64,000 nt of DNA, taken from NCBI RefSeq assembly GCF_022695595.1, contig NZ_CP074380.1, forward strand, positions 3,856,001 through 3,920,000, in the 5' to 3' direction. A program made the translations under genes and the position numbers. This document shows positions 26,059-54,183 of the stretch, piece after piece; position 1 is the first letter of the stretch, and each line of letters opens with the position of its first letter. Below the pieces are notes generated by a model. That model worked only from the letters and a program-made list of their open reading frames with translations. It made no database searches and was not told the origin of the DNA. The DNA is from Streptomyces sp. MST-110588. GTDB taxonomy: Bacteria; Actinomycetota; Actinomycetes; Streptomycetales; Streptomycetaceae.

Positions 26059-26414
26059 TCGGGGGCTCCAGAAATACTTGGTGTCTCCGGGGAGACAGAT
26101 GTGGGGCGTCGACTGGCTGTCACCGTGCGCCCACGAGTAGCTCGCAACGCCCGAGTGCACCGCTACACGATCACCAGAGCGCGATCTTTGCCCATCGGAG
26201 GCAGGCGGCAGCAGCCATCGACAACTCGACCTGGTTACGGTACGCGCGGCGACGTCATCCGGTCAAACCGGCCCCGCTCCGACCACACTATGCACAGGCT
26301 GTGGACAACAACTTGAATCCCCCACCCCGCCCTGACTACCGTGGGTCAACTCCGATTCCTTCCCGCCCGCCCCGTGAATCACACATTCGTGGGACCTGTG
26401 AGAGAGCGTGCTCT
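26059..26414. other. Divergent rpmH-dnaA promoter region
   Basis: 356 bp without a gene. It holds the promoters of rpmH (leftwards) and dnaA (rightwards) and the DnaA-box pair at 26288-26308. No perfect -10/-35 pair could be chosen with confidence. A likely dnaA leader of more than 100 nt separates the boxes from the GTG start. Confidence 0.7.
26288..26308. promoter_or_regulatory. Face-to-face DnaA boxes upstream of dnaA
   Basis: A perfect box TTGTCCACA on the minus strand (26300-26308) faces a weak box CTATGCACA on the plus strand (26288-26296), with 3 bp between them. The same CACAGGCTGTGGACAA arrangement recurs in oriC at 29043-29058. Face-to-face boxes with a 3-bp gap at the dnaA promoter are known from Streptomyces and give DnaA autoregulation. 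Confidence 0.85.
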
Positions 26415-29629: not shown

Positions 29630-30760
29630 GTGAAGATCCGGGTGGAGCGCGATGTACTCGCGGAGGCAGTGGCCTGGGCGGCCAAGAGCCTCCCGGCCCG
29701 TCCGCCGGTGCCCGTCCTCGCGGGCCTGCTGCTGAAGGCGGAGGAGAGTGCCCTGAGCCTCTCCGGCTTCGACTACGAGGTCTCGGCGCGGGTCTCGGTC
29801 GAGGCGGACGTGGAGGAGGGCGGCACGGTCCTGGTCTCCGGCCGCCTGCTCGCCGACATCTGCCGCGCCCTCCCCAACCGTCCGGTGGAGATCTCCACAG
29901 ACGGTGTACGGGTCACCGTCGTCTGCGGCTCCTCGCGATTCACACTCCACACCCTTCCTGTGGAGGAGTACCCGGCCCTGCCGCAGATGCCGACCGCCAC
30001 CGGCACCGTCCCCGGTGAGGTCTTCGCGGCTGCCGCCGCCCAGGTGGCCATCGCCGCCGGCCGCGACGACACGCTCCCGGTGCTCACCGGCGTACGGATC
30101 GAGATCGAGGGCGACACCGTCACGCTGGCCTCCACCGACCGCTACCGCTTCGCGGTCCGCGAGTTCCTGTGGAAGCCGGAGAACCCGGACGCCTCCGCCG
30201 TGGCGCTGGTGCCCGCCAAGACGCTTCTGGACACCGCCAAGTCGCTGAGCAGCGGTGACACCGTCACGCTGGCGCTGTCCGGGTCGGGCGCGGGCGAGGG
30301 CCTGATCGGTTTCGAGGGCGCGGGGCGGCGTACGACCACGCGGCTGCTCGAAGGCGACCTGCCGAAGTACCGCACGCTCTTCCCCACGGAGTTCAACTCG
30401 GTGGCCGTGATCGAGACCGCGCCGTTCGTCGAGGCGGTCAAGCGTGTGGCCCTGGTGGCCGAGCGCAACACTCCGGTGCGGCTGAGCTTCGAGCAGGGTG
30501 TGCTGATCCTGGAAGCGGGGTCGAGCGACGACGCACAGGCTGTGGAAAGGGTCGACGCCGACCTGGAGGGCGAGGACATCTCCATCGCCTTCAACCCGGG
30601 CTTCCTGCTGGAGGGCCTGTCGGCCATCGACTCCCCGGTCGCGCAGCTCTCCTTCACCACGTCGACCAAGCCCGCGCTGCTCAGTGGCCGGCCGGCCAAG
30701 GACGCCGAGGCGGACGAGGCGTACAAGTACCTGATCATGCCGGTCCGCCTCTCCGGCTGA
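29630..30760 (+). CDS. dnaN: DNA polymerase III sliding clamp (beta subunit)
   Basis: 376 residues, start GTG at 29630 with AGGAGG 10 nt upstream. It begins VKIRVERDVLAEAVAWAAKSL and has the three-fold repeated clamp architecture. Conserved blocks include LPVLTGVRIEIEGDTVTLASTDRYR (middle domain) and the C-terminal YLIMPVRLSG, which forms the peptide-binding groove (MPVRL) used by polymerase and repair partners. It encircles DNA as a dimer and tethers replicase. It follows oriC as in nearly all bacteria. Confidence 0.97.
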   Translation: MKIRVERDVLAEAVAWAAKSLPARPPVPVLAGLLLKAEESALSLSGFDYEVSARVSVEADVEEGGTVLVSGRLLADICRALPNRPVEISTDGVRVTVVCGSSRFTLHTLPVEEYPALPQMPTATGTVPGEVFAAAAAQVAIAAGRDDTLPVLTGVRIEIEGDTVTLASTDRYRFAVREFLWKPENPDASAVALVPAKTLLDTAKSLSSGDTVTLALSGSGAGEGLIGFEGAGRRTTTRLLEGDLPKYRTLFPTEFNSVAVIETAPFVEAVKRVALVAERNTPVRLSFEQGVLILEAGSSDDAQAVERVDADLEGEDISIAFNPGFLLEGLSAIDSPVAQLSFTTSTKPALLSGRPAKDAEADEAYKYLIMPVRLSG

Positions 30761-40610: not shown

Positions 40611-42083
40611 GTGAGGCGGCGGCGGACGGCTGGGGGCGAGACGATGCGGGGCTGGAGTCTGCGGCGTGGTGAGGCGGGACGCGGCACCCTGCGACGCGCC
40701 GTGAGGGGGGCCGGCGCCGCGGCGCTCGCCACGATGGCGCTGCTGTCGTCACCCGTACCGGCCGGGGCCCGGAGCGGTGGCCTGCCCACGTACAAGACGG
40801 CTCAGGACGCCAAGGCGGTCAAGGGCACGCCCAGCACTGAGGACGCCCCGCGGATCATCCCCGGCAGGTACTCCGACAGCATCGCGCTGGGGGAGGAGAA
40901 GCACTACGCCGTCGACCTCGACGCGACGTCCAACGCCTATGTGGCGGCGGTCGCCGCGCCACCACCGGGCGCGGAGGTCGAGGACTACACCGACAACCTG
41001 TTGGTTCAGATCAGGGACAGCCGCGGAAACTCGTGCGGTCCGCAGGGGCGTACGGCCTTCCGGGGCCACAGGATGGCCTACCCCGTCGCGGACTACGCCG
41101 GCCGGCAGATCCGCGGACGACGGGCCGACTGCCAGGAGGCGGGCGTGTACGACGTCGTCCTCAAAAGAGAGGGCAGGTCGGCCGCGGGGCCCGACCGCTG
41201 GCCCGTCGAGCTGTCCTTCCTCACCGAGCCGGGCCTGACGGGCAACGCGCCCGGCAAGCCGGCCGACGCCACCCGGCCCACCGAGACACCCCCTCCGCCC
41301 ACTGCCGCAACGAAGAAGAAGGCCACCGGCGGCACCGGCTTCAACGACGCCGGTTCGGTCGGCAAAGGCGTGTGGAAGGACCGGATCAGGCCCGGTGAGA
41401 CCCGCTTCTACCGGGTGCCCGTCGACTGGGGACAGCAGCTCAACGTGAGCGCCGAGCTGCCGGGCGCCCCGGCCGGCGGCACCGGCACCGGGTTCCTGCC
41501 CGACGCGCTCGGTCTGAGCGTCTACAACCCGGCGCGCGGCCTGGTCGGTACGGTCGACTTCGCCGCGTACGACGGAAAACCCGCCGCGGCCCGGATGTTC
41601 ACCGCACCGGTCGACTACGGGAACAGGGAGAGCAGCGTCGACGCGGTCGGCGCGATGCGGTTCGCGGGCTGGTACTACCTCGAAATCTCCCTGCACGGCG
41701 ACACCGCGAAGTACTTCAAGGACGGCGCGGGCCTCACCCTGCGGGTGGATGTGAAGGGGAAGGCGAAGGCCGGGCCCGGTTACAGCAAGGACACGCCCGA
41801 CTTCTCCGTCAGCCAGGACGACAAGGAAGCGGCCGGCAAGGGCCTGAGGGGCGGTCAGGAGGACGGCCCGGGCGCCGGCGCGGGCGGCACCAGGCGGCTG
41901 CTGGGTTATGCGGGGCTCGGCGTGGGCACCGTACTGCTGGCCGGGCTGGGCACGTGGACGCTCGTGGCTCGGCGGCGGGGCGCGGTGGCGGCTCCGGGGG
42001 CGTCTCAGGTAGTCGCCCCCGGGCAGGAACGGTCAGGGCCGGGAGTCGATACGCAGAAGATGAGCCCACCGCAGAACCCTTAG
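40611..42083 (+). CDS. Secreted, C-terminally membrane-anchored protein of unknown function
   Basis: 490 residues, start GTG with GGGGGGAC upstream. A long signal peptide (Arg-rich, then ALATMALLSSPVPAGARS, to about residue 54) is followed by two similar beta-rich modules. The first is about 80-200 (GRYSDSIALGEEKHYAVDLDA) and the second about 255-395 (GVWKDRIRPGETRFYRVPVDW). Both contain the pattern 'G-x-x-x-D-x-I-x-x-G-E-x-x-x-Y-x-V' and resemble bacterial pre-peptidase (PPC-like) beta-sandwich domains. One TM lies near residues 440-460, with a short basic then disordered cytoplasmic tail. Function is not known. It converges with a Ser/Thr kinase gene 46 bp away. Confidence 0.8.
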   Translation: MRRRRTAGGETMRGWSLRRGEAGRGTLRRAVRGAGAAALATMALLSSPVPAGARSGGLPTYKTAQDAKAVKGTPSTEDAPRIIPGRYSDSIALGEEKHYAVDLDATSNAYVAAVAAPPPGAEVEDYTDNLLVQIRDSRGNSCGPQGRTAFRGHRMAYPVADYAGRQIRGRRADCQEAGVYDVVLKREGRSAAGPDRWPVELSFLTEPGLTGNAPGKPADATRPTETPPPPTAATKKKATGGTGFNDAGSVGKGVWKDRIRPGETRFYRVPVDWGQQLNVSAELPGAPAGGTGTGFLPDALGLSVYNPARGLVGTVDFAAYDGKPAAARMFTAPVDYGNRESSVDAVGAMRFAGWYYLEISLHGDTAKYFKDGAGLTLRVDVKGKAKAGPGYSKDTPDFSVSQDDKEAAGKGLRGGQEDGPGAGAGGTRRLLGYAGLGVGTVLLAGLGTWTLVARRRGAVAAPGASQVVAPGQERSGPGVDTQKMSPPQNP

Positions 42084-42098
42084 CCGTACGAGGCACCC

Positions 42099-42124
42099 TG
42101 TCCTGGCCTGTCCTGGCCAGGACA
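42099..42124. terminator. Bidirectional terminator between convergent genes
   Basis: TGTCCTGG and CCAGGACA form an 8-bp perfect stem (42109-42124). A further copy of TGTCCTGGCC at 42099-42108 offers an alternative pairing with a loop. Confidence 0.65.
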
Positions 42125-42129
42125 GACTC

Positions 42130-43608
42130 TCAGCCGCCCGCCAGCGCCCACACACCCAGGGCGATGCACAGCAGCGCCACGACCAGAACCGGGACCGCCA
42201 CCTTCGGGGGCGGTCCCGGCCGCCGTACGGCAGCAGCCGCGCCGGTGGCAGGTGCCGCCGGCGTCGCCGTGGCCTGAGGGGGACGGCCCGCGGTGTACGG
42301 ACGGGTGCGGGCGGGGTCCCGGCGGATGGCGGCCGTGGCCTCGTACGGGGAAACCGGCCGACCGGGTGCGGGGGCGGCGGCCGGCGGCGCGACCGGGACC
42401 GGAGGCGGGGGTGGGCTTGATGGCCGAGCGGCCGAGGCCGAGGCAGGGACCGGAGCCGGTGCCGGAACCGGGCCGGGCGGCGTGCTCGGCGGAGCAGGCG
42501 GGGGCGGCGTACCAGGCCGCTCCGGCACCACCACACCGGACGTCGACCCCGCACCCGTACCCGTACCCATACCCATGCCCGTACTTGCCCCCGAAGCCGA
42601 GGACACCGGAGAGACCGGACCGCCCCCGGCACCGGAACCGGTCCGCGCTTCCGCCCCCGGAACACCGGCCCCGCTTCCGCCCTCGGCCTCCGCCTCAGCC
42701 TCTCCCTCGGCCTCCCGCGGGGCCGGCGCCACCGGCCCGTCCGGCCCGAAGCCCGCCGGCAGCGGTCCGATGTGGTCGAAGACCTCGACGGCCTCTTCCT
42801 CGATCGTCACCTCCGGCAGCAGCTCGGCCGCAGAGAGGAGCGCCTTGCGCGCGCCCGTGGCCGTCTTGAACCGGGCCTCGGGGTCCGGCTGCAGCAGGTT
42901 CGCCAGGACCTGCCACAGCGGCTCCGGCACGTCCTGCGGCGCATCGGGCGTGCCGTGCTCCTCGAAGTGCCGTACGAGCGCCTGGGTGTCGGGCTTGTTC
43001 CCCGTCAGCAGGTACAGGGCGACCAGGCCGACCGCGAAGAGGTCGGCGGGGAAGTCCGGCTCGGCGCCCGTCAGTTGCTCGGGCGCGAAGTAACCGGGCG
43101 TGCCCACGACGTAGTTGGCCTCGGTCAGCCGGGGTTCACCCTTGCGCATGGATATGCCGAAGTCGGACAGCCGCAGGTGGGGGCGCCCGGTTCCGGTGGC
43201 TTCCAGCAGGATGTTCGCGGGCTTGATGTCGCGGTGGACGACGCCCTCGGCGTGTACGGCGGTGAGCCCGGCCAGCAACTGGTCCAGGAGTGTGCACACG
43301 AAGCGGGGCGGCAGCGGCCCGTAGTCACCCACCAGGTGCGCCAGCGAACCACCGTTCACCAGGTCCATGGTGAACAGCACCTTGTCGTCGTCGGCGGCCC
43401 AGCTCGCCGGCGCCAGGACGTGCGGGTGATCGATGCGCAGCGCCTGTTCCCGTACGAATCGCAGCAGCGCGTGCGCGTCGCTCTGCTGGAGCACCTTGGC
43501 CGCCACGTACCGGCGCCGACGGCCGTCCCAGGCACGCCAGACGGCACCCACACCGCCCCGTCCGATCGGATCGATCAGCTCGTACCGGCCGGCGAAAACC
43601 TCACCCAT
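42130..43608 (-). CDS. Membrane Ser/Thr protein kinase (PknB-like, no PASTA)
   Basis: 492 residues. The kinase domain is about 8-265: glycine loop IGRGGVGAVWRA, VAIK lysine in YVAAKVLQQ, catalytic HRDIKPANILL, DFG in LSDFGISMRK and activation-segment GTPGYFAPEQLTG. All catalytic residues are present. A juxtamembrane stretch of about 200 residues is disordered and rich in Pro, Ala, Gly and Glu. One TM closes the protein (about 470-490, VAVPVLVVALLCIALGVWAL), with almost nothing outside, so sensing must come from a partner. The adjacent secreted protein (40611-42083) is a candidate partner by position only. The HTH gene lies upstream in the same direction. Confidence 0.93.
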   Translation of the reverse strand: MGEVFAGRYELIDPIGRGGVGAVWRAWDGRRRRYVAAKVLQQSDAHALLRFVREQALRIDHPHVLAPASWAADDDKVLFTMDLVNGGSLAHLVGDYGPLPPRFVCTLLDQLLAGLTAVHAEGVVHRDIKPANILLEATGTGRPHLRLSDFGISMRKGEPRLTEANYVVGTPGYFAPEQLTGAEPDFPADLFAVGLVALYLLTGNKPDTQALVRHFEEHGTPDAPQDVPEPLWQVLANLLQPDPEARFKTATGARKALLSAAELLPEVTIEEEAVEVFDHIGPLPAGFGPDGPVAPAPREAEGEAEAEAEGGSGAGVPGAEARTGSGAGGGPVSPVSSASGASTGMGMGTGTGAGSTSGVVVPERPGTPPPPAPPSTPPGPVPAPAPVPASASAARPSSPPPPPVPVAPPAAAPAPGRPVSPYEATAAIRRDPARTRPYTAGRPPQATATPAAPATGAAAAVRRPGPPPKVAVPVLVVALLCIALGVWALAGG

Positions 43609-43665
43609 TGCGTCCCTGTCCCCTGCCCCTGACCCGCCCTTGTCCCCTTATCCCCCTCTCCCCCG

Positions 43666-44214
43666 TTAACTCTGGTGCGCTTCGTAGTGCGCCACCGCGT
43701 CCGCCGTCCGCCCCGCGCCGTACACCCGCAGGAACTCCGCCAGTTCGGGGTGGGTGGGAGCGAGGGTGTTCGCGGCGTCGATGATGTCGCCGGCCGCCGA
43801 GACCGAACGCAGCAGCGACTGGATCTCGCGCACCACGCGCCGTACGGTCGTGGCCCCCGTGGACGAGGCGGTCTGGCCGGTGTTGTTCAGCACCGAGCCG
43901 CCCGCGCTCTTCCTGACCTCCTCCATACGGTCGGTGGCCTCGGCCGCGCTGACACTGCCGTCCGCGACCTGCCCGGCCAGCTCTTGGAGCGCCTGGACCC
44001 GCTGCACCACGGCCGGATTCCCGATCTTCGCGCGCTGACCGCTCATGAGCTGCGACAACATGGGCGCCGACAGTCCCAGTACGGAAGCCAGCCGCGCCTG
44101 GTTCAGACCGAGGTCGTCGATGAGGCGGCGGAACAGCGCTCCCAGGGGCTCCCCGTACCAACTCCGCTGCAGCTCCCGAGCGCGCGCGGTGGCTTCCTGC
44201 TGTGCTGCGTCCAT
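43666..44214 (-). CDS. Helix-turn-helix DNA-binding protein
   Basis: 182 residues. An HTH_3/Xre-like motif is at about residues 28-60 (LGLNQARLASVLGLSAPMLSQLMSGQRAKIGNP). Two helical segments with heptad patterning follow, and the C-terminal half (GSVLNNTGQTASSTGATTVRRVVREIQSLLRSV) is a family-specific, helix-rich domain. It is unlike phage repressors in that no protease-like domain is present. It is upstream of, and parallel to, the kinase gene by 57 bp, so it may control it or be its substrate. The many Thr/Ser residues in the central linker are possible phosphosites. Confidence 0.85.
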   Translation of the reverse strand: MDAAQQEATARARELQRSWYGEPLGALFRRLIDDLGLNQARLASVLGLSAPMLSQLMSGQRAKIGNPAVVQRVQALQELAGQVADGSVSAAEATDRMEEVRKSAGGSVLNNTGQTASSTGATTVRRVVREIQSLLRSVSAAGDIIDAANTLAPTHPELAEFLRVYGAGRTADAVAHYEAHQS

Positions 44215-44343
44215 GGCCTCTCCCCTGTCTCCCCGATCGCGCTTCGCTGCCGCGAATCTCGCGCAGCATCCTACGGAGACGACCTGGTCGCGGCGATACC
44301 CGGTCGGAAAACCCTCCTGGCACCGGGTACCCTGGTCGGCGAC

Positions 44344-44416
44344 GGGGCCTTAGCTCAGTTGGTAGAGCGCTGTCTTTGCATGGCAGATGTCAGGGGTTCG
44401 ACTCCCCTAGGCTCCA
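44344..44416 (+). tRNA. alaT: tRNA-Ala (UGC anticodon)
   Basis: Acceptor GGGGCCT pairs with AGGCTCC, with one G-U pair. The D-arm AGCTCAGTTGGTAGAGC, anticodon loop TTTGCAT (TGC at 44377-44379) and T-arm GGGTTCGACTCCC are standard. CCA is not encoded. Confidence 0.97.
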
Positions 44417-44440
44417 CTTATGAAATGCCCTCTGGCCTGC

Positions 44441-44468
44441 GGAAACGCGGTTCGGGGGGCGTTTTTTT
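44441..44468 (+). terminator. Intrinsic terminator of tRNA-Ala
   Basis: Short stem AAACGC/GCGTTT (44443-44448 and 44459-44464) followed by a seven-T run, which is rare in Streptomyces. Two 11-bp direct repeats GTGCCCATCAT follow at 44469-44490. Confidence 0.7.
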
Positions 44469-44672
44469 GTGCCCATCATGTGCCCATCATGTGCCCGTCG
44501 GTGGGTGCATCCGCGCCCATCGGGCATGGAGGGAGCCCTTGCCCTCCTTGCCCTTCAAGGGATGTGCCCGCTCGCGTCTCCCCCTGGGATCTCCTGGGCC
44601 CGACGACCGCCGGGATCGCGGGCTGGTTTGCGAGCCTTGCTGGTTTCCTACTCGTTTGACACAGTGGACCGT

Positions 44673-44957
44673 ATGTCTGAGGAGGCGTACAGCATTGGTG
44701 AGGGCCCAGCCACGCGGGTGAGCCTGTCCCTGCCGGAGGGGACGGCGGAGGCGATCCGCGCGCGGGTGGGCAAGCGGGAGTTCTCCGCGTTCATCACGGC
44801 CGCAGTCGAGCGTGAGCTGCGCGGTCAAGTTCTGGACGAGTACCTGACCGACTACGAGCGGCGCAAGGGCCCGGTTTCGGAGCAGGCGCAGGAGCGGGCG
44901 CGGATGGTCTTCGACGAGGTGTTCGCTGAGGAAGAGCAGTGGCCCGCCGCAAGCTGA
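44673..44957 (+). CDS. Putative type II antitoxin (VapB-like) partnered with PIN toxin
   Basis: 94 residues. An N-terminal ribbon-like strand TRVSLSLPEGTAEAIRARVGKREFSAFITAAVERELR fits a ribbon-helix-helix DNA-binding domain (about residues 14-50), and an acidic C-terminal region (RMVFDEVFAEEEQ) would bind the toxin. The toxin gene overlaps its 3' end by 19 bp, as is usual for TA pairs. It starts about 260 bp downstream of tRNA-Ala. No ribosome site is evident before the ATG. Confidence 0.75.
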   Translation: MSEEAYSIGEGPATRVSLSLPEGTAEAIRARVGKREFSAFITAAVERELRGQVLDEYLTDYERRKGPVSEQAQERARMVFDEVFAEEEQWPAAS

Positions 44958-45352
44958 CTCATGCGGGGACCCTGGTCCTGGACAGCGAGGGCCTGTCGAA
45001 GCTGCTCAGGGATGACGAGCAAGCGGTCGCACTGGTTGCGGAGGCGCGGCGGCGGGGCATGGATGTGGTGATCTGTGCGCTCACCATCATCGAGGCCGTG
45101 CATGCCCGCACCGACAAGGCCCGGCTGCGGTGGCTGCTGTCGGGGCTGCGGGTGGTCGCGGTGGGGGACGAGGAGGCGAAGGCGGCTTCGGCACTGCTGA
45201 TGGCGGCCGGTCTGCACGGCCAGAAGTACGCCATCGACGCGGCCGTGGCCGGGACGGCTCTGCGCCAGCAGCGCCCGGTGGTGATGCTGACCTCGGACAT
45301 CGATGACATGACCAAGCTGTGCGGAGACCGGGTCCGGCTCGTTGCCGTTTGA
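44939..45352 (+). CDS. PIN domain toxin (VapC-like ribonuclease)
   Basis: 137 residues, start GTG at 44939. The four acidic residues of the PIN active site can be seen: Asp in LVLDSEGLSKLL, Glu in LTIIEAVHA, Asp in YAIDAAVAGTA and Asp in MLTSDIDDM. Length is normal and the frame is intact, so an active, metal-dependent RNase is expected. Relatives cleave tRNA or rRNA when freed from the antitoxin. It is the second gene of the pair beginning at 44673. Confidence 0.85.
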   Translation: MARRKLTHAGTLVLDSEGLSKLLRDDEQAVALVAEARRRGMDVVICALTIIEAVHARTDKARLRWLLSGLRVVAVGDEEAKAASALLMAAGLHGQKYAIDAAVAGTALRQQRPVVMLTSDIDDMTKLCGDRVRLVAV

Positions 45353-45463
45353 ATGCGGTTGGTGTTCCTGGCTGTTGAGCGCGTTGTGTGCGCATGACCG
45401 CTGGCGGCGACACGCTTCGTGCCACAGCGAAAGCAGGGGGCGGCCGATTCACCTGTGGGGGCT

Positions 45464-45481
45464 GTATACGCGGACGCATAC
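45464..45481. promoter_or_regulatory. Imperfect palindrome before the second antitoxin gene
   Basis: GTATACG CGGA CGCATAC reads as an inverted repeat with one mismatch per arm, 7 bp before the ATG of the antitoxin at 45489. It may be the autoregulatory operator of this TA pair. Confidence 0.4.
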
Positions 45482-45488
45482 TTCATCC

Positions 45489-45755
45489 ATGTCTGATGCC
45501 ATGATCCGTGTGCCTGCCGAGGTGCGGGACCGTCTGGCGGTCATCGCCGAGTCGCGGGGGACGTCGATCCGTTCATTGGTGCAGGAGTTCGCGGAGACCA
45601 CGCTGACCGACGAGGAACGGCGGGAGCGGGCGGAGCGGACGCGCGCGTATCTGGCGGACCACTTCGGCGTCGAGGTGAGCGATGAGGAGAGCGCGGCCAT
45701 GGGGTGGAAGCTCCGAGGAGCCTTTGCCCGGCCGCAGCGGGATGTCGCCGGGTGA
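45489..45755 (+). CDS. Second putative antitoxin (ribbon-helix-helix type)
   Basis: 88 residues. IRVPAEVRDRLAVIAESRGTSIRSLVQEFAE (about residues 5-36) is a typical ribbon-helix-helix antitoxin head. The remaining residues, ending in RGAFARPQRDVAG, would embrace a toxin. Its stop overlaps a GTG start of a PIN-like frame (GTGA). The partner is cut short, so this antitoxin is probably an orphan. Confidence 0.75.
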   Translation: MSDAMIRVPAEVRDRLAVIAESRGTSIRSLVQEFAETTLTDEERRERAERTRAYLADHFGVEVSDEESAAMGWKLRGAFARPQRDVAG

Positions 45756-45957
45756 TCCAGCACCATCTCGTGCTGGATCACCCGACGTTGTTGGCGCTGT
45801 CGGGAAACCGGCAGGTGTCCGCACTGATCCACCGCGCGCACTTCGAGCCCGAGACCAGGCTGTGGGCGCCGGTCCTGTCGGTCCTGGAAGCCGACGCCGA
45901 GCACGTTGGACTGGCCGGACACATCGGTCAGCTCGACAGGACCGCTTTGAGGGGGCT
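45752..45957 (+). pseudogene. Truncated PIN-domain toxin remnant
   Basis: The frame starts VIQHHLVLDHPTLLALSGNRQVSALIHRAHF and keeps the first acidic residues of the PIN active site (LVLDHPT and VLEADAE). After about 68 residues (GHIGQLDRTALRGL) it loses family character and runs on to 46201 across the terminator and 3' end of the NRPS gene. The last two catalytic aspartates are missing, so no RNase activity is expected. The 5' GTGA overlap with the antitoxin shows it was once a normal pair. Confidence 0.7.
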
Positions 45958-45979
45958 TGAGGGAGAAGGGGCGGCGGAT

Positions 45980-46009
45980 CGCGGGGCGGCGGTGGTGTGT
46001 GCCGCCCCG
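45980..46009 (-). terminator. Terminator of the Pls-like NRPS gene
   Basis: Perfect 10-bp arms 45980-45989 and 46000-46009 (GCGGGGCGGC and complement), 16 bp past the NRPS stop codon on the minus strand. Confidence 0.75.
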
Positions 46010-46025
46010 CGTCCGATTGGTCAGG

Positions 46026-49000
46026 TCACCTGGCCGGGTGTGCCTCGGCGGCCCGGGTGCTGCCGGCCCCGGTGCTTGCGGCGGCCGGTGGCAGGGGTGC
46101 CGGTGTGCCGGTGGCCGGTGGGGTCACCGCGGCCGGGCGTTCGCCGGCGATCGGGTTGCCTGCCCATCGTGTGCCGGCCGGTACGCTCTCGCCGCGCATG
46201 ACCAGTGACGCCGGGCCGATGGCGGCGCGTTCGCCGACCGTGGTGCCGGGCAGCGTGATGCCGTGCGGGCCCAGGGAAGAGCCCGCCGCCATATGGACGG
46301 TGTCCAGCCGCATGATCCGGTCGTGGAACAGGTGCGTCTGCAGGACACAGCCGCGGTTGACGCTGACGCCGTCCCCGAGCGTGATCAGGTCGGTCTCCGG
46401 CAGCCAGTACGTGTCGCACCACACGCCGCGCCCGATCCGGGCGCCCAGGCTGCGCAGCCACCAGTTCAGTACGGGCGTGCCGGTGAAGGCGCCGGCCATC
46501 CACGGCACGGCCAGTGACTCCACGAAGGTGTCGTACAGCTCGTTGCGCCACACGAACGAGGACCACAGCGGATGTTCACCGGTGCGGAAGCGGCCGACGA
46601 GCAGCCACTTCGCGGCGGTCGCGGTCAGCAGGGCCAGCAGCCCGGCGGCCAGCAGCAGGAGGGCGCCCATCAATGCCGCCAGCCCGATCCCGCCGGCCTT
46701 GAGCGCGCCCTGCTCACCGACCAACACCGCCTCGGCCAGCGTCATCGAGCACATCAGCGGCAGCACCCGGCAGGACTCGACGGCCGCCCGCGCCAGCACC
46801 AGCTTGCGCGGCGGCTCGAAGGTACGGCCGGGGTCGGCGGACGAGGGGGTGCGCGGCAGCGGCAGCGCGGGCCGCCCCAGCCAGGACGAGCCGGGCTCGC
46901 TGCGCTCCGGCGCGTCCGACAGCACGCCGATCAGGGCCTGGTCCGGGACCTCGCGGTCCGGGCCGACGATCCCCGAGTTGCCGACGAACGCCCGCCGCCC
47001 GATGTGCGAGGTGCCCAGCCGCAGCCAGCCACCGCGCAGTTCGTACGGGGCCACCAGCGTGTCGTCGGCAAGGAAGGCGCCGTCCGCCACGCTCAGCAGG
47101 GACGGCAGCGGCAGCACGGTGGAGATCTCGGCGTGCCGGCCGACCCGGGCGCCGAGCAGCCGCAGCCACAGCGGGGTGGCCAGGCTCGCGTAGATCGGGA
47201 AGAGACTGCTCCGGGCGCCGTTCAGCAGCCGGGTGACCAGCCAGGCGCGCCAGGCCACCGGCCCGCGCACCGGGTACGTACCGGGCCGTATGCCGCGTCC
47301 CAGCATCCTGACCACGGCCGCGACCAGCAGGATCCAGCACAGCGTCGTGACGACGGCGATCACGGGTGCGGCGGCGAACAGCCGCAGCGCCGCGTCGTGG
47401 AGCGTCGTACAGTCGCGCACCAGCCAGTAGACGCCGGCGAGCGCGGGCAGCATGGCCAGCAGCGGCAGCACCGGCAGTCCGGCCAGCGTCAGGCCGTACG
47501 CGGCGGTCCACAGGCGGGAGTGGGCCGGGCGGGCATCGGGCCAGGCGGTGCCCGCCGTACGGGCGTTGCCCTCGGCGGGCCGGGCGGGCGACCCCTCCCA
47601 GACCTCGTGAGCCGGTACGGTCCCGCCCAGGCAGCCGCCGGGGGCCAGTTCGGCGCCCGGGCCCAGCGCGGCGCCGGGCAGCAGCGTCGAGCGGTGGCCC
47701 ACCCGGGCACCCGCCCCCACGCTCACGGACCCGACCCGCAGCACGTCCCCGTCCAGCCACCAGCCGGACAGGTCGGCCTCGGGCTCCACGCTCGCGCGCT
47801 CGCCCAGTTCGGCCAGGCCGGTCACCGGGGGCATGGCGTGCAGCGCCACATCGGCACCCACCCGGCAGCCCAGGGCCCGTGCGTACAGCCGCGCCCACGG
47901 CGTACCCAGCAGCGCGGGCACACCGAACGCCGCCACCGTCCGCTCGGCTGCCCACAGCCGCATGTGCACCTGTCCGCCGCGCGGATAGGCGCCCGGGGTG
48001 ATGGAGCGGGTGAGCGCGCGGGCGGCCAACGCGCCGATGGCGAACCGGGAGGGGGCGCTCATCAGCACCAGCCAGCCGACGATCACCAGCCACCAGGAGG
48101 TGTGCGGCACCCAGGTCTGCGGGGCCAGCAGCCACAACACGTTGTCGGCGGCGGCCAGGGCGACCGCGCCGCGCAGGCCGGCCACGCCGTACAGGAGGAG
48201 CTGGATGAGCATCTGTACGGCGCCGGTGCGGCGCGGTACCGGCCGGACCGCTTCGGCGCCGGACGACGGCTCACGGCGGGCCGGGCCCGAGCGGGCGGGC
48301 CCGGCGTCCGGATGCCCCGTACCGCCGTGGGCTGCCACGCTGCCCTGTCCGTCCTGGCCACCGTCCGCCGACTGTTCGGCGGTCAGCGAGTCCAGGTAAG
48401 CGGCCATGTCACGCAGGACCGGCCGGCGGTAGAGATCGGCCACCGAGACGCCGGGGTGGTCGGCGCGCAGCCTGGAGGCCAGTTGGGCGGCGCTGAGACT
48501 GCCGCCGCCCAGGGCGAAGAAGTCGCTGTCCGCGCCGGGCCGTACGCCCAGCAGCTCCTGCCAGGCATCGGCGAGCCGCGCGGCGGTGCCGGTGAGTCCG
48601 TCGCGCGAGCCGTCTTCCCCCGCGTCCGCGTCCGGTCCGCCGGACCGGTGCGCGTCCGGGGACGCGTCCGTGCCCGTCCGGTCCGTCGCCGCGGCGGGCA
48701 GCGGCCAGGGCAGCGCGTCGCGGTCCACTTTTCCTGACGTACGGGTGGGCAGCTCGGCCACCTCGGCCAGTACGGGCACCAGCGCGGCGGGCAGCCGGTC
48801 CGCCAGGACCTTGCGGGCCAGGTCGGGGCGGAAACCGGTTTCTGTGCCTGTTGTGGTTCCTGCGCCTTTGCCTGTTCTGGTGCTTTTGCCTGTTTTGGTG
48901 TCGGAACCGGTGGCCGTACGGGTCTCCGGTACGACGTACCCGACCAGGATCCGGCCCCCGGACGGCGTGGTGCGCACCGCGGCAGCCGCGCTCCGGACAC

Positions 49001-50408
49001 CGTCCAGATCGGCCAGCGCCGCGTCGATCTCGCCCAGTTCGATCCGCCGGCCACCCACCTTGACCTGGTCGTCGGCGCGTCCGACGTAGAACAGGCCCTC
49101 GGGTTCGGCCCGTACCAGGTCCCCCGTACGGTAGGCGCGCCGTGCGTCCAGCGCCGGGCAGGGCACGAAGCGCTCCGAGTCCTTGGCCAGGTCGAGATAG
49201 CGGGCCAGGCCGGCGCCCGCGATGATCAGCTCGCCCTGGGCGCCGTACGGAACCGGCGTACCGTCGGCGTCGACGACCGCCAGGTCCCAGCCGTCCAGGG
49301 GGAGCCCGATCCGTACCGGCTCCTGCGGCAGCAGGCGTTCGGCACACGCCACGACCGTGGTCTCGGTCGGCCCGTAGGTGTTCCACATCTCCCGGCCCGG
49401 GGTGGCGAACCGCTCCACGAGCCCGGCGGGGCAGGCTTCACCGCCGACGATCAGCAGCCGTACGGCGGCCAGGGCCTCGTCCGGCCACAGCGCGGCCAGC
49501 GTCGGCACCGTGGAGACCACCGTGATGCCCCGCTCGACCAGCCACGGGCCCAGCTCGTGGCCCGCCCTCACCAGCGAGCGCGATGCCGGCACCAGACACG
49601 CGCCGCTCCGCCAGGCCAGCCACATCTCCTCGCAGGAGGCGTCGAAGGCCACGGACAGCCCGGCCAGCACCCGGTCACCGGGGCCCAGTGGCCGGTCGCC
49701 GCGCAGGAACAGCTCCGCCTCGGCGTCCACGAAGGCCGCGGCGGCTCGGTGGGTGACGGCGACGCCCTTGGGTGCGCCGGTCGAGCCGGAGGTGAAGATG
49801 ATCCACGCGTCGTCGTCCGTGGAGGGAGTACGGGGCGGGGCGCTTCCGTCGGTCGACGGTGCGCTCCTGTCGGACGACGACGGCGGCGGGTAGTCGCCGA
49901 CCGGGCCCGACAGCAGCGGCTCGGCGGCGCCGTTGAGAACCGCGCACACCCCCGCCTCACCGAAGACCGAGGCCGCCCGCTCCTCAGGATCGTCGGCGTC
50001 GACCGGAACGTAGGCGGCACCGCTGCGCAGCACGGCCAGGATGGACAGATACAGCTCCGCCGTACCGGAGGCGACCCGGATCCCGACCCGGTCGCCGGGG
50101 CCGATGCCGTGCGCCGCCAGACGCTCTGCGCGTCGGCCGACCTCCGCCCACAGAGTGCGGTAGTCGATCACCTCCTCCCCGGTGTCGAGGGCCGGCGCGT
50201 CCGCGTGGGCGGTCACGGTGGCTTCCAGGACATCGAGCAGCGTCCGTGGCGGATGGGCCGGCGCTCCCCGGTATATCGCCGCGTCGGGGCCGTCGGAGGT
50301 GTCGGAGGCGTCGGAGGCGGCGGGCTGGCCGGGCACACCCGACGGGGCGGTTATGCCGGACGGTGCTTCCACGGGATCGCGGGAGGAAGGCAGAGAGGAC
50401 AAGGACAT
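46026..50408 (-). CDS. pls: Pls/PosA-type single-module membrane NRPS (poly-basic amino acid synthetase, e.g. epsilon-poly-L-lysine)
   Basis: About 1460 residues from the ATG at 50408, which has AAAGG upstream (a TTG at 50426 is also in frame). The adenylation domain (about 50-570) has A3 TSGSTGAPKGVAVTH, A5 NTYGPTETTV, A7 YRTGDLVR, A8 GRADDQVKVGGRRIELGEID and A10 PTRTSGKVDRDAL. The carrier domain (about 630-700) has DSDFFALGGGSLSAAQLASRL with the phosphopantetheine serine. Six TM segments then come in three pairs, each pair followed by a soluble domain with hexapeptide-repeat/left-handed helix features. No HHxxxDG condensation motif and no thioesterase were seen. This layout (A-T-TM2-C1-TM2-C2-TM2-C3) is that of epsilon-poly-L-lysine synthetase and its relatives for poly-ornithine and poly-diaminobutyrate. 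Which amino acid is used is not settled by eye. Confidence 0.9.
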   Translation of the reverse strand: MSLSSLPSSRDPVEAPSGITAPSGVPGQPAASDASDTSDGPDAAIYRGAPAHPPRTLLDVLEATVTAHADAPALDTGEEVIDYRTLWAEVGRRAERLAAHGIGPGDRVGIRVASGTAELYLSILAVLRSGAAYVPVDADDPEERAASVFGEAGVCAVLNGAAEPLLSGPVGDYPPPSSSDRSAPSTDGSAPPRTPSTDDDAWIIFTSGSTGAPKGVAVTHRAAAAFVDAEAELFLRGDRPLGPGDRVLAGLSVAFDASCEEMWLAWRSGACLVPASRSLVRAGHELGPWLVERGITVVSTVPTLAALWPDEALAAVRLLIVGGEACPAGLVERFATPGREMWNTYGPTETTVVACAERLLPQEPVRIGLPLDGWDLAVVDADGTPVPYGAQGELIIAGAGLARYLDLAKDSERFVPCPALDARRAYRTGDLVRAEPEGLFYVGRADDQVKVGGRRIELGEIDAALADLDGVRSAAAAVRTTPSGGRILVGYVVPETRTATGSDTKTGKSTRTGKGAGTTTGTETGFRPDLARKVLADRLPAALVPVLAEVAELPTRTSGKVDRDALPWPLPAAATDRTGTDASPDAHRSGGPDADAGEDGSRDGLTGTAARLADAWQELLGVRPGADSDFFALGGGSLSAAQLASRLRADHPGVSVADLYRRPVLRDMAAYLDSLTAEQSADGGQDGQGSVAAHGGTGHPDAGPARSGPARREPSSGAEAVRPVPRRTGAVQMLIQLLLYGVAGLRGAVALAAADNVLWLLAPQTWVPHTSWWLVIVGWLVLMSAPSRFAIGALAARALTRSITPGAYPRGGQVHMRLWAAERTVAAFGVPALLGTPWARLYARALGCRVGADVALHAMPPVTGLAELGERASVEPEADLSGWWLDGDVLRVGSVSVGAGARVGHRSTLLPGAALGPGAELAPGGCLGGTVPAHEVWEGSPARPAEGNARTAGTAWPDARPAHSRLWTAAYGLTLAGLPVLPLLAMLPALAGVYWLVRDCTTLHDAALRLFAAAPVIAVVTTLCWILLVAAVVRMLGRGIRPGTYPVRGPVAWRAWLVTRLLNGARSSLFPIYASLATPLWLRLLGARVGRHAEISTVLPLPSLLSVADGAFLADDTLVAPYELRGGWLRLGTSHIGRRAFVGNSGIVGPDREVPDQALIGVLSDAPERSEPGSSWLGRPALPLPRTPSSADPGRTFEPPRKLVLARAAVESCRVLPLMCSMTLAEAVLVGEQGALKAGGIGLAALMGALLLLAAGLLALLTATAAKWLLVGRFRTGEHPLWSSFVWRNELYDTFVESLAVPWMAGAFTGTPVLNWWLRSLGARIGRGVWCDTYWLPETDLITLGDGVSVNRGCVLQTHLFHDRIMRLDTVHMAAGSSLGPHGITLPGTTVGERAAIGPASLVMRGESVPAGTRWAGNPIAGERPAAVTPPATGTPAPLPPAAASTGAGSTRAAEAHPAR

Positions 50409-50432
50409 CGAGAGCCTTTGGTTCAACGTGAA

Positions 50433-50466
50433 TACGGGCGGATGTCCTACGGGACGTCCGCCCGTA
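50433..50466 (-). promoter_or_regulatory. Hairpin in the leader of the Pls-like gene
   Basis: Fifteen-bp arms 50433-50447 and 50452-50466 (TACGGGCGGATGTCC) with one mismatch and a 4-nt loop, 25 nt upstream of the ATG. It would form at the 5' end of the mRNA and could act on stability or attenuation. It is not a terminator of a visible upstream gene. Confidence 0.55.
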
Positions 50467-50810
50467 CAAGAGGCGCCTCACGCGGGCTCGGTTCTGGTCC
50501 TTTTGCCAACTCTGCGTAAAAGGCCGGTTTGCTTGATGGGTGGAGGGCTGGTGACGGAAATCTAAGAAAATGTCTCATAAACGCTGGCTACAGTTCCTTG
50601 CCGTCGGCGGCGCGCCCTGGCCGCCGGATCGTCGACGGCGCGGCACCGCCTGCTCCCGAGCGAGCGGGCCGGCCAACTGCGCAGACGCGACCGCGTGATC
50701 GTACGGCCGCACGATCACGGGACCGTACGGCCGGAGGCCCGCGCTACCGGGCTCCCGCGTGGCCGGGTGGCCCGCGGGAGCCCCATGTCGTCCTGAAGGA
50801 GAACTCGGCG

Positions 50811-51041
50811 ATGCGGGAAATGATGTCCTTCGCGGCACAAGCCTTCCGCCGACTCACGAAAGCCCGTCACCGGAGCGGCCGGATGTCGCACCGGAAGGAA
50901 GCCGGTCGAAGAAGCCGGTCGAAGAAGCCGGTCCAGGGAAGCCGTCGGAAGAATTCCCGGGGCGCGACGCACACAGCAAGTGGAAACAGGAGGGGAAGCG
51001 TCCTGCGGCCTTGCGGGACGCTCAATACGGCTGGACATTGA
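50811..51041 (+). CDS. Small very basic hypothetical protein
   Basis: 76-residue frame with a proper AAGGAG site 9 nt before the ATG. It begins MREMMSFAAQAFRRLTKARHR and is rich in Arg, Lys and Ser (SKKPVQGSRRKNSRG). A short repeat of GGTCGAAGAAGCC lies in the DNA. The frame ends 33 bp before a strong terminator, which supports a real transcript on this strand. It lacks clear domain signals, and another frame here (around 50830-51130) is open too, so this is tentative. Confidence 0.4.
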   Translation: MREMMSFAAQAFRRLTKARHRSGRMSHRKEAGRRSRSKKPVQGSRRKNSRGATHTASGNRRGSVLRPCGTLNTAGH

Positions 51042-51073
51042 CGCGCAAGCGGTGGGCGGTCCGTCGCACGACG

Positions 51074-51131
51074 CGGCCGTGTTGTCGTCCTGTACCCCCG
51101 TCATCGTGGGTACGGGACGACAACACGGCCG
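51074..51131. terminator. Strong bidirectional terminator
   Basis: Arms of 24 bp (51074-51097 and 51108-51131, starting CGGCCGTGTTGTCGTCC) with a single G-T type mismatch and a 10-nt loop. It serves the DUF5324 gene on the minus strand and any transcript coming from the left. Confidence 0.85.
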
Positions 51132-51242
51132 TCGTACTTCTGTCCTCAGACCCCGTCCGTCATGGGGGACGTCAGGGACGCTTAGGGCGTCTGGGGCGTC
51201 AGGAACGCCTGGGGCGTCAGGAACGTCACGAAGTCCGGGACG

Positions 51243-51965
51243 TCAGGGCGTGCCACCGCGCTGCTCGGGCTCGGCCTCCGCCTCGGCCTGCTTGGCCTGC
51301 ACCTCCGGGTCCAGAACCGCCGCCTCCGCGCTGCCGTCCACCGCGGAGAGCGTCGCCCGGTCGTTGACCTCGGTGGGGGCGGGCGGCTCGACCAGCCAGT
51401 CCGGGTTGGCCTGCTTGTCCCACCACTTCCACGCGACGACCGCGCCGCCGGCCAGCACGGTCAGCACCGCCAGGCGCTTGGCCAGCCGTCCGGCCCGGGC
51501 CCGGCGCCGGTGCTTCTTGACGAGCTTTTCGATCTCGGCGGCCGACACCTGTCCGCGCAGCGCCGCCAGCGCCGCCGTACCGCGGGCCAGGGCTTCTTCC
51601 CGTACCGGTTCGGCGGCGGCACGCGCGCTGTGGACGGCGTGCTCCACGCGAGGTGCCGTGTAGTCGGCGGCCTGACGCGCGGCCTTACGGGTCATCTTCG
51701 CCGCCCGGGCCGCCGCCGCGTCCACCTTGGGGGGCAGCGCGCCACGCGCGTGCTCGATGCGCGGCTGTACGTGGGCGTCGTACTGGTTGCGGGCCTGGTG
51801 AGCAGCCTCGGCGACCTTGGGTGCCAGCCGCGTTCGAGCCTCGTGCGCGTAGTGAACGGCGGTGTCCTTGGCCGTGCCGGCATACGGAGCCACCACCTCC
51901 GCGGCGTGCCGCACGCTGTCCTTGGCCGAAACGGTCGCGGCGCGCACGCTGTCCTTGCGGGTCAC
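51243..51965 (-). CDS. DUF5324 family membrane protein
   Basis: 240 residues, start GTG at 51965 with GAGGAGGATCCC upstream. Residues 1-150 are a long amphipathic, Ala/Arg/His-rich helical region with 11-residue style repeats (AAEVVAPYAGTAKDTAVHYAHEARTRLAPKVAEAAHQ), likely coiled coil. A TM follows near residues 165-183 (LAVLTVLAGGAVVAWKWW), then a short acidic C-terminal tail. Only Streptomyces-type actinobacteria carry it, always near crgA/ppi, and its function is unknown. It is divergent from the cyclophilin gene. Confidence 0.88.
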   Translation of the reverse strand: MTRKDSVRAATVSAKDSVRHAAEVVAPYAGTAKDTAVHYAHEARTRLAPKVAEAAHQARNQYDAHVQPRIEHARGALPPKVDAAAARAAKMTRKAARQAADYTAPRVEHAVHSARAAAEPVREEALARGTAALAALRGQVSAAEIEKLVKKHRRRARAGRLAKRLAVLTVLAGGAVVAWKWWDKQANPDWLVEPPAPTEVNDRATLSAVDGSAEAAVLDPEVQAKQAEAEAEPEQRGGTP

Positions 51966-52456
51966 GGGATCCTCCTCCTCGGTGGCGTGTCCGGGGGCTC
52001 GGGGCCGTCCCCCAACGTCTTGTTCCTCGCCTGTCCACCCGGTTGAAGATCATGCCTGCTCATGCCTGGTACGGCATGTGCGAGCGGGCATCCGGGTCAT
52101 TGGGGACCTTACGGAGCCATCGGAGCCTTCTGACGACAATGCCACGGTTCGTCGCCGCGCGCGCCGGTTCGGCCGGTACTGGTCCCTGTTCTCATGGGAC
52201 GAGTGGCCCCGTACCGGCCATGTACTCCTCCCCTGCGCGTCGGATTCCTGACGGCTTCCCGACAGCTTCCTGTTGGTTTCCTGCGGCTTTCGGTCGGCTT
52301 GTGATCAGCTTTTGATCAGCTTCCGGTCGGATTCCCGCCGGATTCCCGGCGGGAAGAAATTGTGCGAAGCGCGTACCGAGGCGGTGGCCGGGGGACGAAC
52401 GGGCCGGTCCGTGCGAGGATCGGGAACCGTCAGTGCAGACTTATGGAAGGTAGATC
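51966..52456. other. Divergent interval between DUF5324 and cyclophilin genes
   Basis: 491 bp with no gene supported. It contains degenerate GCTTCC/GGTCGG repeats at about 52245-52360, including two copies of TGATCAGCTT (52302-52311, 52313-52322), and a hairpin with 10-bp arms (52332-52341, 52346-52355, TTCCCGCCGG). Promoters for both flanking genes should be here. Confidence 0.55.
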
Positions 52457-52984
52457 GTGGCTGAGCAGCTCTACGCCACCCTGAAGACCAACCGGGGCGA
52501 CATCGAGATCCGGCTTCTGCCGAACCACGCCCCGACGACAGTGAAGAACTTCGTCGAGCTCGCCAAGGGCGAGCGCGAGTGGACCAACCCCAAGGACGGC
52601 AAGAAGTCCACCGCCAAGCTGTACGACGGCACGGTCTTCCACCGGGTGATCAGCGGTTTCATGATCCAGGGCGGTGACCCGCTGGGCAACGGCACCGGTG
52701 GTCCGGGGTACGAGTTCAAGGACGAGTTCCACCCGGACCTCTCCTTCAACAAGCCGTACCTCCTGGCCATGGCCAACGCCGGCCCGGGCACCAACGGCTC
52801 GCAGTTCTTCATCACGGTCGCCCCGACCACGTGGCTGACCGGCAAGCACACCATCTTCGGTGAGGTCGCCACCGACGCCGGCAAGAAGGTCGTGGACGAC
52901 ATCGCCGCTACCCAGACCAACCCGCGGACCGACCGTCCCGTCAACGACGTCGTGATCGAGTCGGTCGTCATCGAGAACCGCTGA
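52457..52984 (+). CDS. ppi: Peptidyl-prolyl cis-trans isomerase (cyclophilin)
   Basis: 175 residues, start GTG. It is a single cyclophilin domain, cytoplasmic since no signal peptide is present. Active-site blocks are VFHRVISGFMIQGGDP (with catalytic Arg and Phe), GTNGSQFFITVAPTTWLTGKHTIFGEV and MANAGPGTNGS. The N-terminal NRGDIEIRLLPNHAPTTVKNFVELA is the usual start. It speeds proline isomerisation in folding. Its location just right of the tRNA zone is the point where conserved gene order with mycobacteria (ppiA) resumes. A purine-rich GGAAGG stands upstream. Confidence 0.96.
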   Translation: MAEQLYATLKTNRGDIEIRLLPNHAPTTVKNFVELAKGEREWTNPKDGKKSTAKLYDGTVFHRVISGFMIQGGDPLGNGTGGPGYEFKDEFHPDLSFNKPYLLAMANAGPGTNGSQFFITVAPTTWLTGKHTIFGEVATDAGKKVVDDIAATQTNPRTDRPVNDVVIESVVIENR

Positions 52985-53010
52985 GGCCGGTCGTCCGGTC
53001 CGGTACGGCC

Positions 53011-53045
53011 GTCTGCCGTCTGCTGTCTGCCGTCTGCCGTCGGTC
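53011..53045 (+). repeat. Heptanucleotide tandem repeat
   Basis: Five 7-bp units of GTCTGCC type (53011-53045, with two variant copies) in the gap between the cyclophilin and rhomboid genes. They look like slippage products. Confidence 0.8.
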
Positions 53046-53229
53046 GTACCGGGAACCATCGCGCCCTGCCTGGTCGTAGATCGGGTGGGGCGCGAAGCTG
53101 TTGCACGCCGTGGAGCGGAACGAAACGGAGCGGGGCCGGGGGCGGTGCCGAGGTGGCGCGCTGCGGTGAGATCCGTACGCACAGGACACCCGTACGCACA
53201 GGACGAGGGACCGAGGGGACCGACGACCG

Positions 53230-54183
53230 ATGGACCAGGTGCCAGGCAGCCCGCAGGAGCCGCGGGACGCGAAGGAAGGCAGCGGCCTGCCCGGTTGCTA
53301 CCGCCACTCCGACCGGGAGACCGGTATCCGCTGCACCCGCTGTGAGAAGCCCATCTGCCCCGAGTGCATGGTCAGCGCCTCGGTCGGCTTCCAGTGCCCG
53401 GACTGCGTACGCGGTGGCAGCGGTACGGGCCACGCACCGCGGGCCGCGGTCCCCCGTACGGTCGCGGGCGGCGCGCTCACCGCCACCCCCGCCCTGGTGA
53501 CCAAGATCCTCATCGGTCTCAACCTGGGTTTCTTCGTGCTGGTCCTCGCTGCGCAGCAGGGCCTCTTCGGGGACGCCGGCCAGGACGTCGTCGGTGACCT
53601 GGACATGCTTGCCCTGGCCTGGGACCCGGGTCAGTTCAAGCTCGTCGGTGTCGCCGAGGGCGAGTGGTACCGCCTGCTGACCGCGATGTTCCTGCACCAG
53701 CAGATCATGCACATCGGGTTCAACATGCTCTCGCTGTGGTGGCTGGGCCCCTCTTTGGAAGCGGCTCTCGGCCGGGTCCGCTATCTGGCGCTCTACCTGC
53801 TCTCCGGGCTGGGCGGCAGCGCCCTGTCCTACGTGCTCGCCGCCCAGAACGAGCCCTCGCTGGGCGCCTCGGGCGCGATCTTCGGCCTGCTCGGCGCGAC
53901 CGCCGTACTGCTGCGCCGACTGCGTTACGACATGAAGCCGGTCCTGATCCTGCTCGGCCTCAACCTGGCCTTCACGTTCCTGTGGCCGAACATCGCCTGG
54001 TCGGCCCATGTGGGTGGCCTGGTGGTGGGCGCGGCGGTGGCGTACGGCATGGTGCACGCGCCCCGCGAGCGGCGGACGCTGGTGCAGGTAGGAACCTGTG
54101 CGGTGGTGCTGGTGGCGATCATCGCGGTGGTGTGGGTGTGGACCGCTCATCTGCTGAGCGGGACGGCGGGACTGATGACCTGA
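53230..54183 (+). CDS. Rhomboid family intramembrane serine protease
   Basis: 317 residues. An N-terminal zinc-finger (B-box-like) domain has the cysteine/histidine pairs GCYRH, IRCTRCEKPICPECM and FQCPDCV (about residues 20-65). The rhomboid core with six to seven TMs begins near residue 95. It has the HIGFNMLSLWWLGP block, the catalytic serine in GASGAIFGLLGA and the catalytic histidine in SAHVGGLVVGAAV. All active-site residues are present. The protease cleaves single-span membrane proteins; substrates in Streptomyces are unknown. The ATG is preceded by GAGGGGACC. The gene converges on crgA across a DnaA-box cluster. Confidence 0.95.
   Translation: MDQVPGSPQEPRDAKEGSGLPGCYRHSDRETGIRCTRCEKPICPECMVSASVGFQCPDCVRGGSGTGHAPRAAVPRTVAGGALTATPALVTKILIGLNLGFFVLVLAAQQGLFGDAGQDVVGDLDMLALAWDPGQFKLVGVAEGEWYRLLTAMFLHQQIMHIGFNMLSLWWLGPSLEAALGRVRYLALYLLSGLGGSALSYVLAAQNEPSLGASGAIFGLLGATAVLLRRLRYDMKPVLILLGLNLAFTFLWPNIAWSAHVGGLVVGAAVAYGMVHAPRERRTLVQVGTCAVVLVAIIAVVWVWTAHLLSGTAGLMT

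Follow-up and report, generated by a model that had tools for sequence, protein, structure and literature searches.

A predicted e-poly-L-lysine synthetase gene without a neighbouring PldII beside the replication origin of Streptomyces sp. MST-110588

A 64-kb stretch of the chromosome of Streptomyces sp. MST-110588, referred to here as the window, contains a gene of the Pls/PosA type (positions 46026..50408, minus strand, 1460 aa) close to the origin of replication. The locus raises the questions of which polymer the encoded enzyme makes, whether the gene is functional, and how it came to lie at this place on its own. The explanation that best fits the results, and that we hold to be very likely, is that the gene codes for an intact membrane-bound synthetase of e-poly-L-lysine (e-PL), that PldII, the degrading enzyme coupled to it, disappeared in a lineage shared with S. 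rimosus, and that a rearrangement in at least one of the two since their split left the gene, hereafter pls, in different surroundings, which here are those beside oriC. e-PL is an antimicrobial that serves as a food preservative.

Domain anatomy and predicted substrate

The predicted protein consists of an adenylation (A, AMP-binding) domain (49200..50225, minus strand, residues 62-403), a carrier (T, PP-binding) domain with the motif LGGGSLS (48393..48578, minus strand, residues 611-672) and a membrane polymerisation domain (46149..48218, minus strand, residues 731-1420). One A and one T domain, and no C or TE domain, were returned by a domain scan, as expected from the original prediction, which had seen neither a thioesterase nor a condensation motif. 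The three TM pairs with soluble repeat domains described there are recovered as three repeats of a TM pair and a left-handed beta-helix, both in an AlphaFold2 model (pLDDT 89.9) and as hydropathy clusters, with the sixth TM segment not separately resolved. The membrane domain includes a QTHLFHDR block, and H1359 and D1363 are invariant in 52 aligned sequences. The C-terminal part scores 684 bits against NCBIfam TIGR02353 (Pls/PosA family; curated cut-off 423), and the best sequence match in the PDB is 7wew, the adenylation domain of an e-PL synthase (746 bits). The original description of an A-carrier-membrane protein of the Pls/PosA type is thereby confirmed as a whole. The gene is apparently intact and its predicted product an ordinary enzyme of a kind already known.

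Proteins named e-PL synthase are found among the nearest relatives, and six of those listed (P0009-P0013, P0028) carry the NCBI name e-PL synthase Pls. The closest homologues are from S. rimosus NRRL WC-3904 (locus L039, 78% identity) and 'S. albus subsp. albus' (P0002, 81%), and P0002 is 85% identical to the S. rimosus protein. The window protein shares with S. albulus-type Pls (7wew A domain, P0013, TIGR02353) the A-T-three-repeat membrane layout, the specificity code and the chain-length residues. It exceeds the 1319-aa P0013 by 141 residues that are located in the N-terminus, the A-domain loops, the A-T and T-TM linkers and the tail. In the alignment, W766 and L1003 correspond to W646 and L883 of characterised Pls, a numbering that was verified on P0013, which has W and L at those positions. 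Mutation of W646 or L883 shortens the e-PL chain (Hamano 2014, as told in PMC8506220).

The pocket positions of the A domain were located by motif, in GrsA numbering, and compared with 7wew in an alignment. The resulting ten-position code is DAESIGTVVK (residues 256, 257, 260, 299, 320, 322, 344, 352, 353 and 560), and all ten letters are identical between the window protein and 7wew. The same code is found in all 200 rows of an alignment of the window protein with 199 close relatives (119 proteins and 80 loci, some genes being included twice and all being chosen for similarity). Within the wider family in the genus, represented by 53 loci, 38 carry DAESIGTVVK, five a DFE-type code, and ten lack a complete readable code in the tblastn frame. 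The codes DFEYVGTVTK, DFECLSAVTK and DFEYMGTVTK occur among the remote members, and the five DFE-type members of the genus share no more than 38% identity with the window protein.

According to a study of PosA, the delta-poly-L-ornithine synthetase of Acinetobacter baumannii, the second code position is Ala in lysine-activating enzymes, Met in PosA and Phe in Dap- and Dab-activating enzymes (PMC10522769). PosA has the family layout of the window protein and differs from it in its code, DMEHNGTVSK (PMC10522769). The synthetases of gamma-poly-Dab and beta-poly-Dap likewise share the layout (PMC8117764) and have, in contrast to the window protein, Phe at position 2 (PMC10522769). With Ala257 at position 2 and Glu at position 3, the window code is of the lysine type and has no Phe as in the Dab/Dap enzymes, in comparison with a reference set that contains no epsilon-poly-beta-lysine synthetases. 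L-lysine is the expected substrate because Ala at position 2 is the lysine mark of the PosA study, with e-PL as the very probable product. The predicted pocket suits a basic residue, so the basic substrate proposed originally stands; the choice among Lys, Orn and Dab that had been left open is narrowed to the e-PL type, which is neither DFE nor PosA.

State of the gene and absence of PldII

To describe selection on pls, dN/dS ratios (omega; Nei-Gojobori) were calculated against S. rimosus. They are low for the A domain (0.18; residues 50-480, 90% identical), the T domain (0.13; residues 606-675) and the C-terminal domain (0.29), and higher (0.69) for the T-TM linker, one of several long and poorly conserved linkers. 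Over the whole gene, omega is 0.28-0.31 against S. rimosus and 0.29-0.33 against four other species. Upstream of the start codon, a promoter/leader block of 120 nt (50409..50528, minus strand) is conserved and can be aligned across ten loci. It matches S. rimosus in 75 of 120 columns, with 43 of 60 in the best part compared with 37 in the highest of 30 control stretches; farther upstream, and also downstream of the pls stop codon, the similarity is control-like. Taken together, the omega values, which indicate purifying selection, and the conserved leader fit a constrained gene with its own promoter.

A predicted stem-loop is located in the leader just upstream of the start (50432..50467, minus strand; -27.5 kcal/mol, z -5.76). 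In seven of ten leaders (the window, L039, L041, L183, L185, L186 and L187), a strong stem precedes the start by some tens of bases (z -2.4 to -5.4, each leader being represented by its best 46-nt stretch and compared with mononucleotide shuffles); it is missing in the other three (L040, L182, L184). The long stem was not recovered by RNAalifold on a MAFFT alignment of the leaders, with an unfavourable covariation term, and a wider upstream scan gave a different stem as the longest in the window and most other loci. Given the unsupportive alignment fold and the longer stems elsewhere upstream, the stem-loop remains a lead; it is possibly a regulatory RNA or an operator.

The pldII gene of S. 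albulus shares 4 bp with pls, and the enzyme it encodes breaks down e-PL and shields the producing cell (PMC4361855, PMC9223678). The window differs from this arrangement: no PldII-like peptidase is encoded downstream of pls. The 471-aa protein of locus L043 was used as a PldII probe; it was taken for PldII from its position, where it overlaps pls by 4 bp, its length and a Peptidase_M1 match, and stands in for the S. albulus enzyme. Of 80 related loci, 70 have a PldII-like M1 peptidase gene downstream of pls in the same orientation, within 300 bp in 66 of them and at 0.6-2.1 kb in L069, L083, L088 and L112. Two loci (L044, L049) end too early to be informative, which gives 70 of 78 testable loci, and the peptidase is absent from the remaining eight (L039, L046, L047, L048, L050, L051, L089, L100). 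In one set of eight loci it is present in seven, the eighth being again the S. rimosus locus. The lack of an adjacent degrading enzyme was correctly noted in the original description, and it is more telling than was recognised, since 70 of the 78 testable relatives have such an enzyme.

In the whole genome, the best match to the probe reaches 37% identity, and four near-full-length homologues (36-38%) are encoded elsewhere, at 7075835-7077217, 2244864-2246183, 3365890-3367149 and 1907854-1909155 in genome coordinates. As PldII these were rejected, since the peptidases beside the closer pls relatives (L040-L042, L182-L188) are 60-86% identical to the same probe. One of the four distant homologues may degrade e-PL in trans. 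In a FastTree phylogeny of 81 rows, comprising related loci only and no characterised non-lysine member, the window and S. rimosus sequences are sisters with a local support of 100. The presence and absence of PldII on this tree requires four changes, a count that does not by itself separate gain from loss. As the two sisters both lack the peptidase, its loss appears to mark their common lineage, and it probably occurred elsewhere as well. The S. rimosus locus resembles the window in the absence of PldII and in the matching leader and differs in its flanks, whose genes have no counterpart beside the window pls at 40% identity and half-length coverage.

An adjacent PldII is not required for production: S. 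albulus pls with its native promoter yielded e-PL in S. lividans, and growth was not inhibited (PMC3937719). A search of titles and abstract openings found no published case of pls without pldII, which is a weak negative. Convergent with the S. rimosus gene lies a gene for an M20-family peptidase (L039, 14501-15691, minus strand), possibly a substitute degrading enzyme. The loci L047 and L048 belong to one genome (Kitasatospora aureofaciens CPD02), which carries two different pls-like genes, neither of them beside PldII.

Genomic context beside the replication origin

The genes dnaA (26301-28478) and dnaN (29630-30760) are encoded in the same window, which places the start of pls about 20 kb from the dnaA-dnaN gap. 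In S. albulus ZPM, in contrast, pls is located about 3.2 Mb from the origin (oriC at 5.11 Mb, pls cluster at 8.28-8.33 Mb; PMC4361855). The interval that contains pls is bordered on the left by tRNA-Ala(TGC) (44344..44417, plus strand) and on the right by a DUF5324 core gene (51243..51965, minus strand). It was compared in 27 relatives, namely 19 of 24 genomes of the genus and eight genomes in which a pls of 66% identity or more lies elsewhere. Both borders were found in 23 relatives; none has pls between them, and the distance from tRNA-Ala to DUF5324 varies from 0.15 to 12.8 kb. For L141, L154, L207 and L210 the tRNA lies outside the stretch examined, and this stretch contains no pls. The interval of S. 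rimosus measures about 240 bp (L203). Other relatives carry unrelated cargo, such as a LanB/LanC-like lanthionine synthetase pair (L157), a BTAD regulator (L150) and a beta-helix protein (L139). The interval is a hotspot of the Streptomyces core chromosome beside oriC that takes up unrelated cargo, in agreement with the variable zone suspected earlier.

Between tRNA-Ala and pls, two tandem PIN toxin-antitoxin-like pairs are encoded on the plus strand (44673-45937). The first is apparently intact, with an antitoxin-like ORF from about 44673 that has no Pfam match and a PIN-domain toxin (44939..45352, plus strand). The second consists of an RHH-like antitoxin (45489..45755, plus strand), whose Arc/RHH matches are weak and below the cut-off, and a toxin gene remnant (45752..45937, plus strand) that breaks off after residue 62 of about 128 and whose end lies 88 bp from the stop codon of pls. 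Toxin probes gave no match at the tRNA-Ala/DUF5324 site of the 27 relatives. We read the truncated toxin beside the pls stop as a rearrangement junction. A clean insertion of pls into the toxin gene was rejected, since the missing second half was not found anywhere in the 64-kb window; for the same reason the junction would stem from a deletion or from some rearrangement of greater complexity.

Between pls and its S. rimosus counterpart dS is 0.36, compared with 0.29-0.62 for four neighbouring core genes. As pls falls within the range of the core genes, common descent followed by relocation is more probable than acquisition from a remote source; transfer between close relatives may have occurred, given the noise in single-gene dS estimates. 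The DNA on both sides of the S. rimosus pls has only short scattered matches and no collinear counterpart in the genome of strain MST-110588. A move from the S. rimosus site was considered, and no empty old site was recognised in this genome. The lack of a collinear counterpart means that the S. rimosus gene may also have moved.

Alternative readings and occurrence of the family

Three other readings were weighed against an intact e-PL synthetase gene that was relocated after the loss of PldII. Polymerisation of another diamino acid (ornithine, Dab, Dap or beta-lysine) has precedents among family members with other substrates (PMC10522769, PMC8117764), and codes do not always predict the substrate. 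We nevertheless regard it as most improbable: the window code equals that of the e-PL group in the 200 rows and differs from the five DFE-type members with their identity of 38% or less, the closest structure by sequence is an e-PL synthase, and no lysine aminomutase, Dab transaminase or aspartate kinase was found by Pfam among the neighbouring ORFs scanned. That pls is silent or decaying, and would have to be off to avoid self-poisoning without PldII, is also improbable. The missing partner enzyme, the scar in the neighbouring toxin gene and the lowered e-PL tolerance of S. albulus upon pldII repression (PMC9223678) would agree with a remnant. The reading frame, however, is open, the domain omega values (0.13-0.29) and the whole-gene values, which are like those of other pls pairs, speak for constraint, and the leader is conserved; the uninhibited growth of S. 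lividans with pls alone argues in the same direction. Moreover, no PldII adjoins pls at L047 and L048 of K. aureofaciens either, and this species, possibly in another strain, is a reported producer of short-chain e-PL (PMC8506220).

A larger share of doubt concerns the arrival of pls, which could have come by horizontal transfer on an integrative element with the toxin-antitoxin pairs as further cargo. Such an element would explain the position at the 3' side of tRNA-Ala, the two PIN pairs that adjoin pls and the cargo that varies among relatives, as with the LanB/LanC-like pair. A comparison of the tRNA-Ala gene plus 20 bp with 44418-52500 on either strand nevertheless gave no repeat of at least 10 bp besides the tRNA's own flank, and none of the direct-repeat families of 44300-52500 includes the tRNA. 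No integrase was found by Pfam among the ORFs of the interval scanned, the GC content is not distinct (profile 42000-53500), the dS of pls is like that of core genes, and gene and leader are both nearest to S. rimosus. After the repeat search an element at tRNA-Ala is unsupported; it is kept as an alternative that we consider unlikely.

By analogy with characterised Pls, the A domain of the proposed e-PL synthetase would adenylate L-lysine and load it onto the carrier arm. The three-fold helix/beta-helix membrane domain would then repeatedly join the carrier-bound lysine to free lysine or to the chain via the epsilon-amine, and the outcome would be a secreted polymer. PldII would have been lost in the lineage leading to strain MST-110588 and the S. 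rimosus locus. After the split from S. rimosus, a rearrangement in at least one of the two would have put pls with its leader of about 120 bp into different surroundings, which in strain MST-110588 are now the tRNA-Ala/DUF5324 hotspot. With PldII lost in this lineage, self-protection would not proceed via a neighbouring PldII; its likely substitutes are a low yield, Streptomyces tolerance, or an M1-like peptidase encoded at a distance. A further-reaching idea, which we put forward tentatively and do not favour, is that e-PL synthesis in the S. rimosus lineage is uncoupled from PldII: a solitary pls would have been carried, together with a structured leader, into the highest-dosage region on the oriC side, the polymer would be left untrimmed, and another, undescribed form of protection would operate.

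As an enzyme, the predicted protein adds one more e-PL synthetase to a genus in which these are common; unusual are its lone place beside oriC and the absence of PldII. Since this genome and the S. rimosus locus both carry pls without PldII, they offer a natural experiment on whether protection depends on PldII or chain length is influenced by it.

The TIGR02353 cut-off is passed in 172 of 295 genomes of the genus, a count that also takes in proteins that lack an A domain or carry different codes. In a pangenome study, e-PL is among the most recurrent known clusters of Streptomyces, with 730 BGCs (PMC11734326). Both results make this an ordinary gene class, and the original view of few relatives and rare polymers was wrong. 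The 29 genomes searched with the C-terminal half of the protein were selected for TIGR02353 E-values weaker than those of most others, which means that their counts are no census of pls. Seven loci (L009, L012, L023, L025, L035, L036, L038) contain frames of 854-1106 aa with very high TIGR02353 scores. They are 25-29% like the window protein, and the match begins at residue 581-626, past the A domain; their products are perhaps terminal domains without adenylation.
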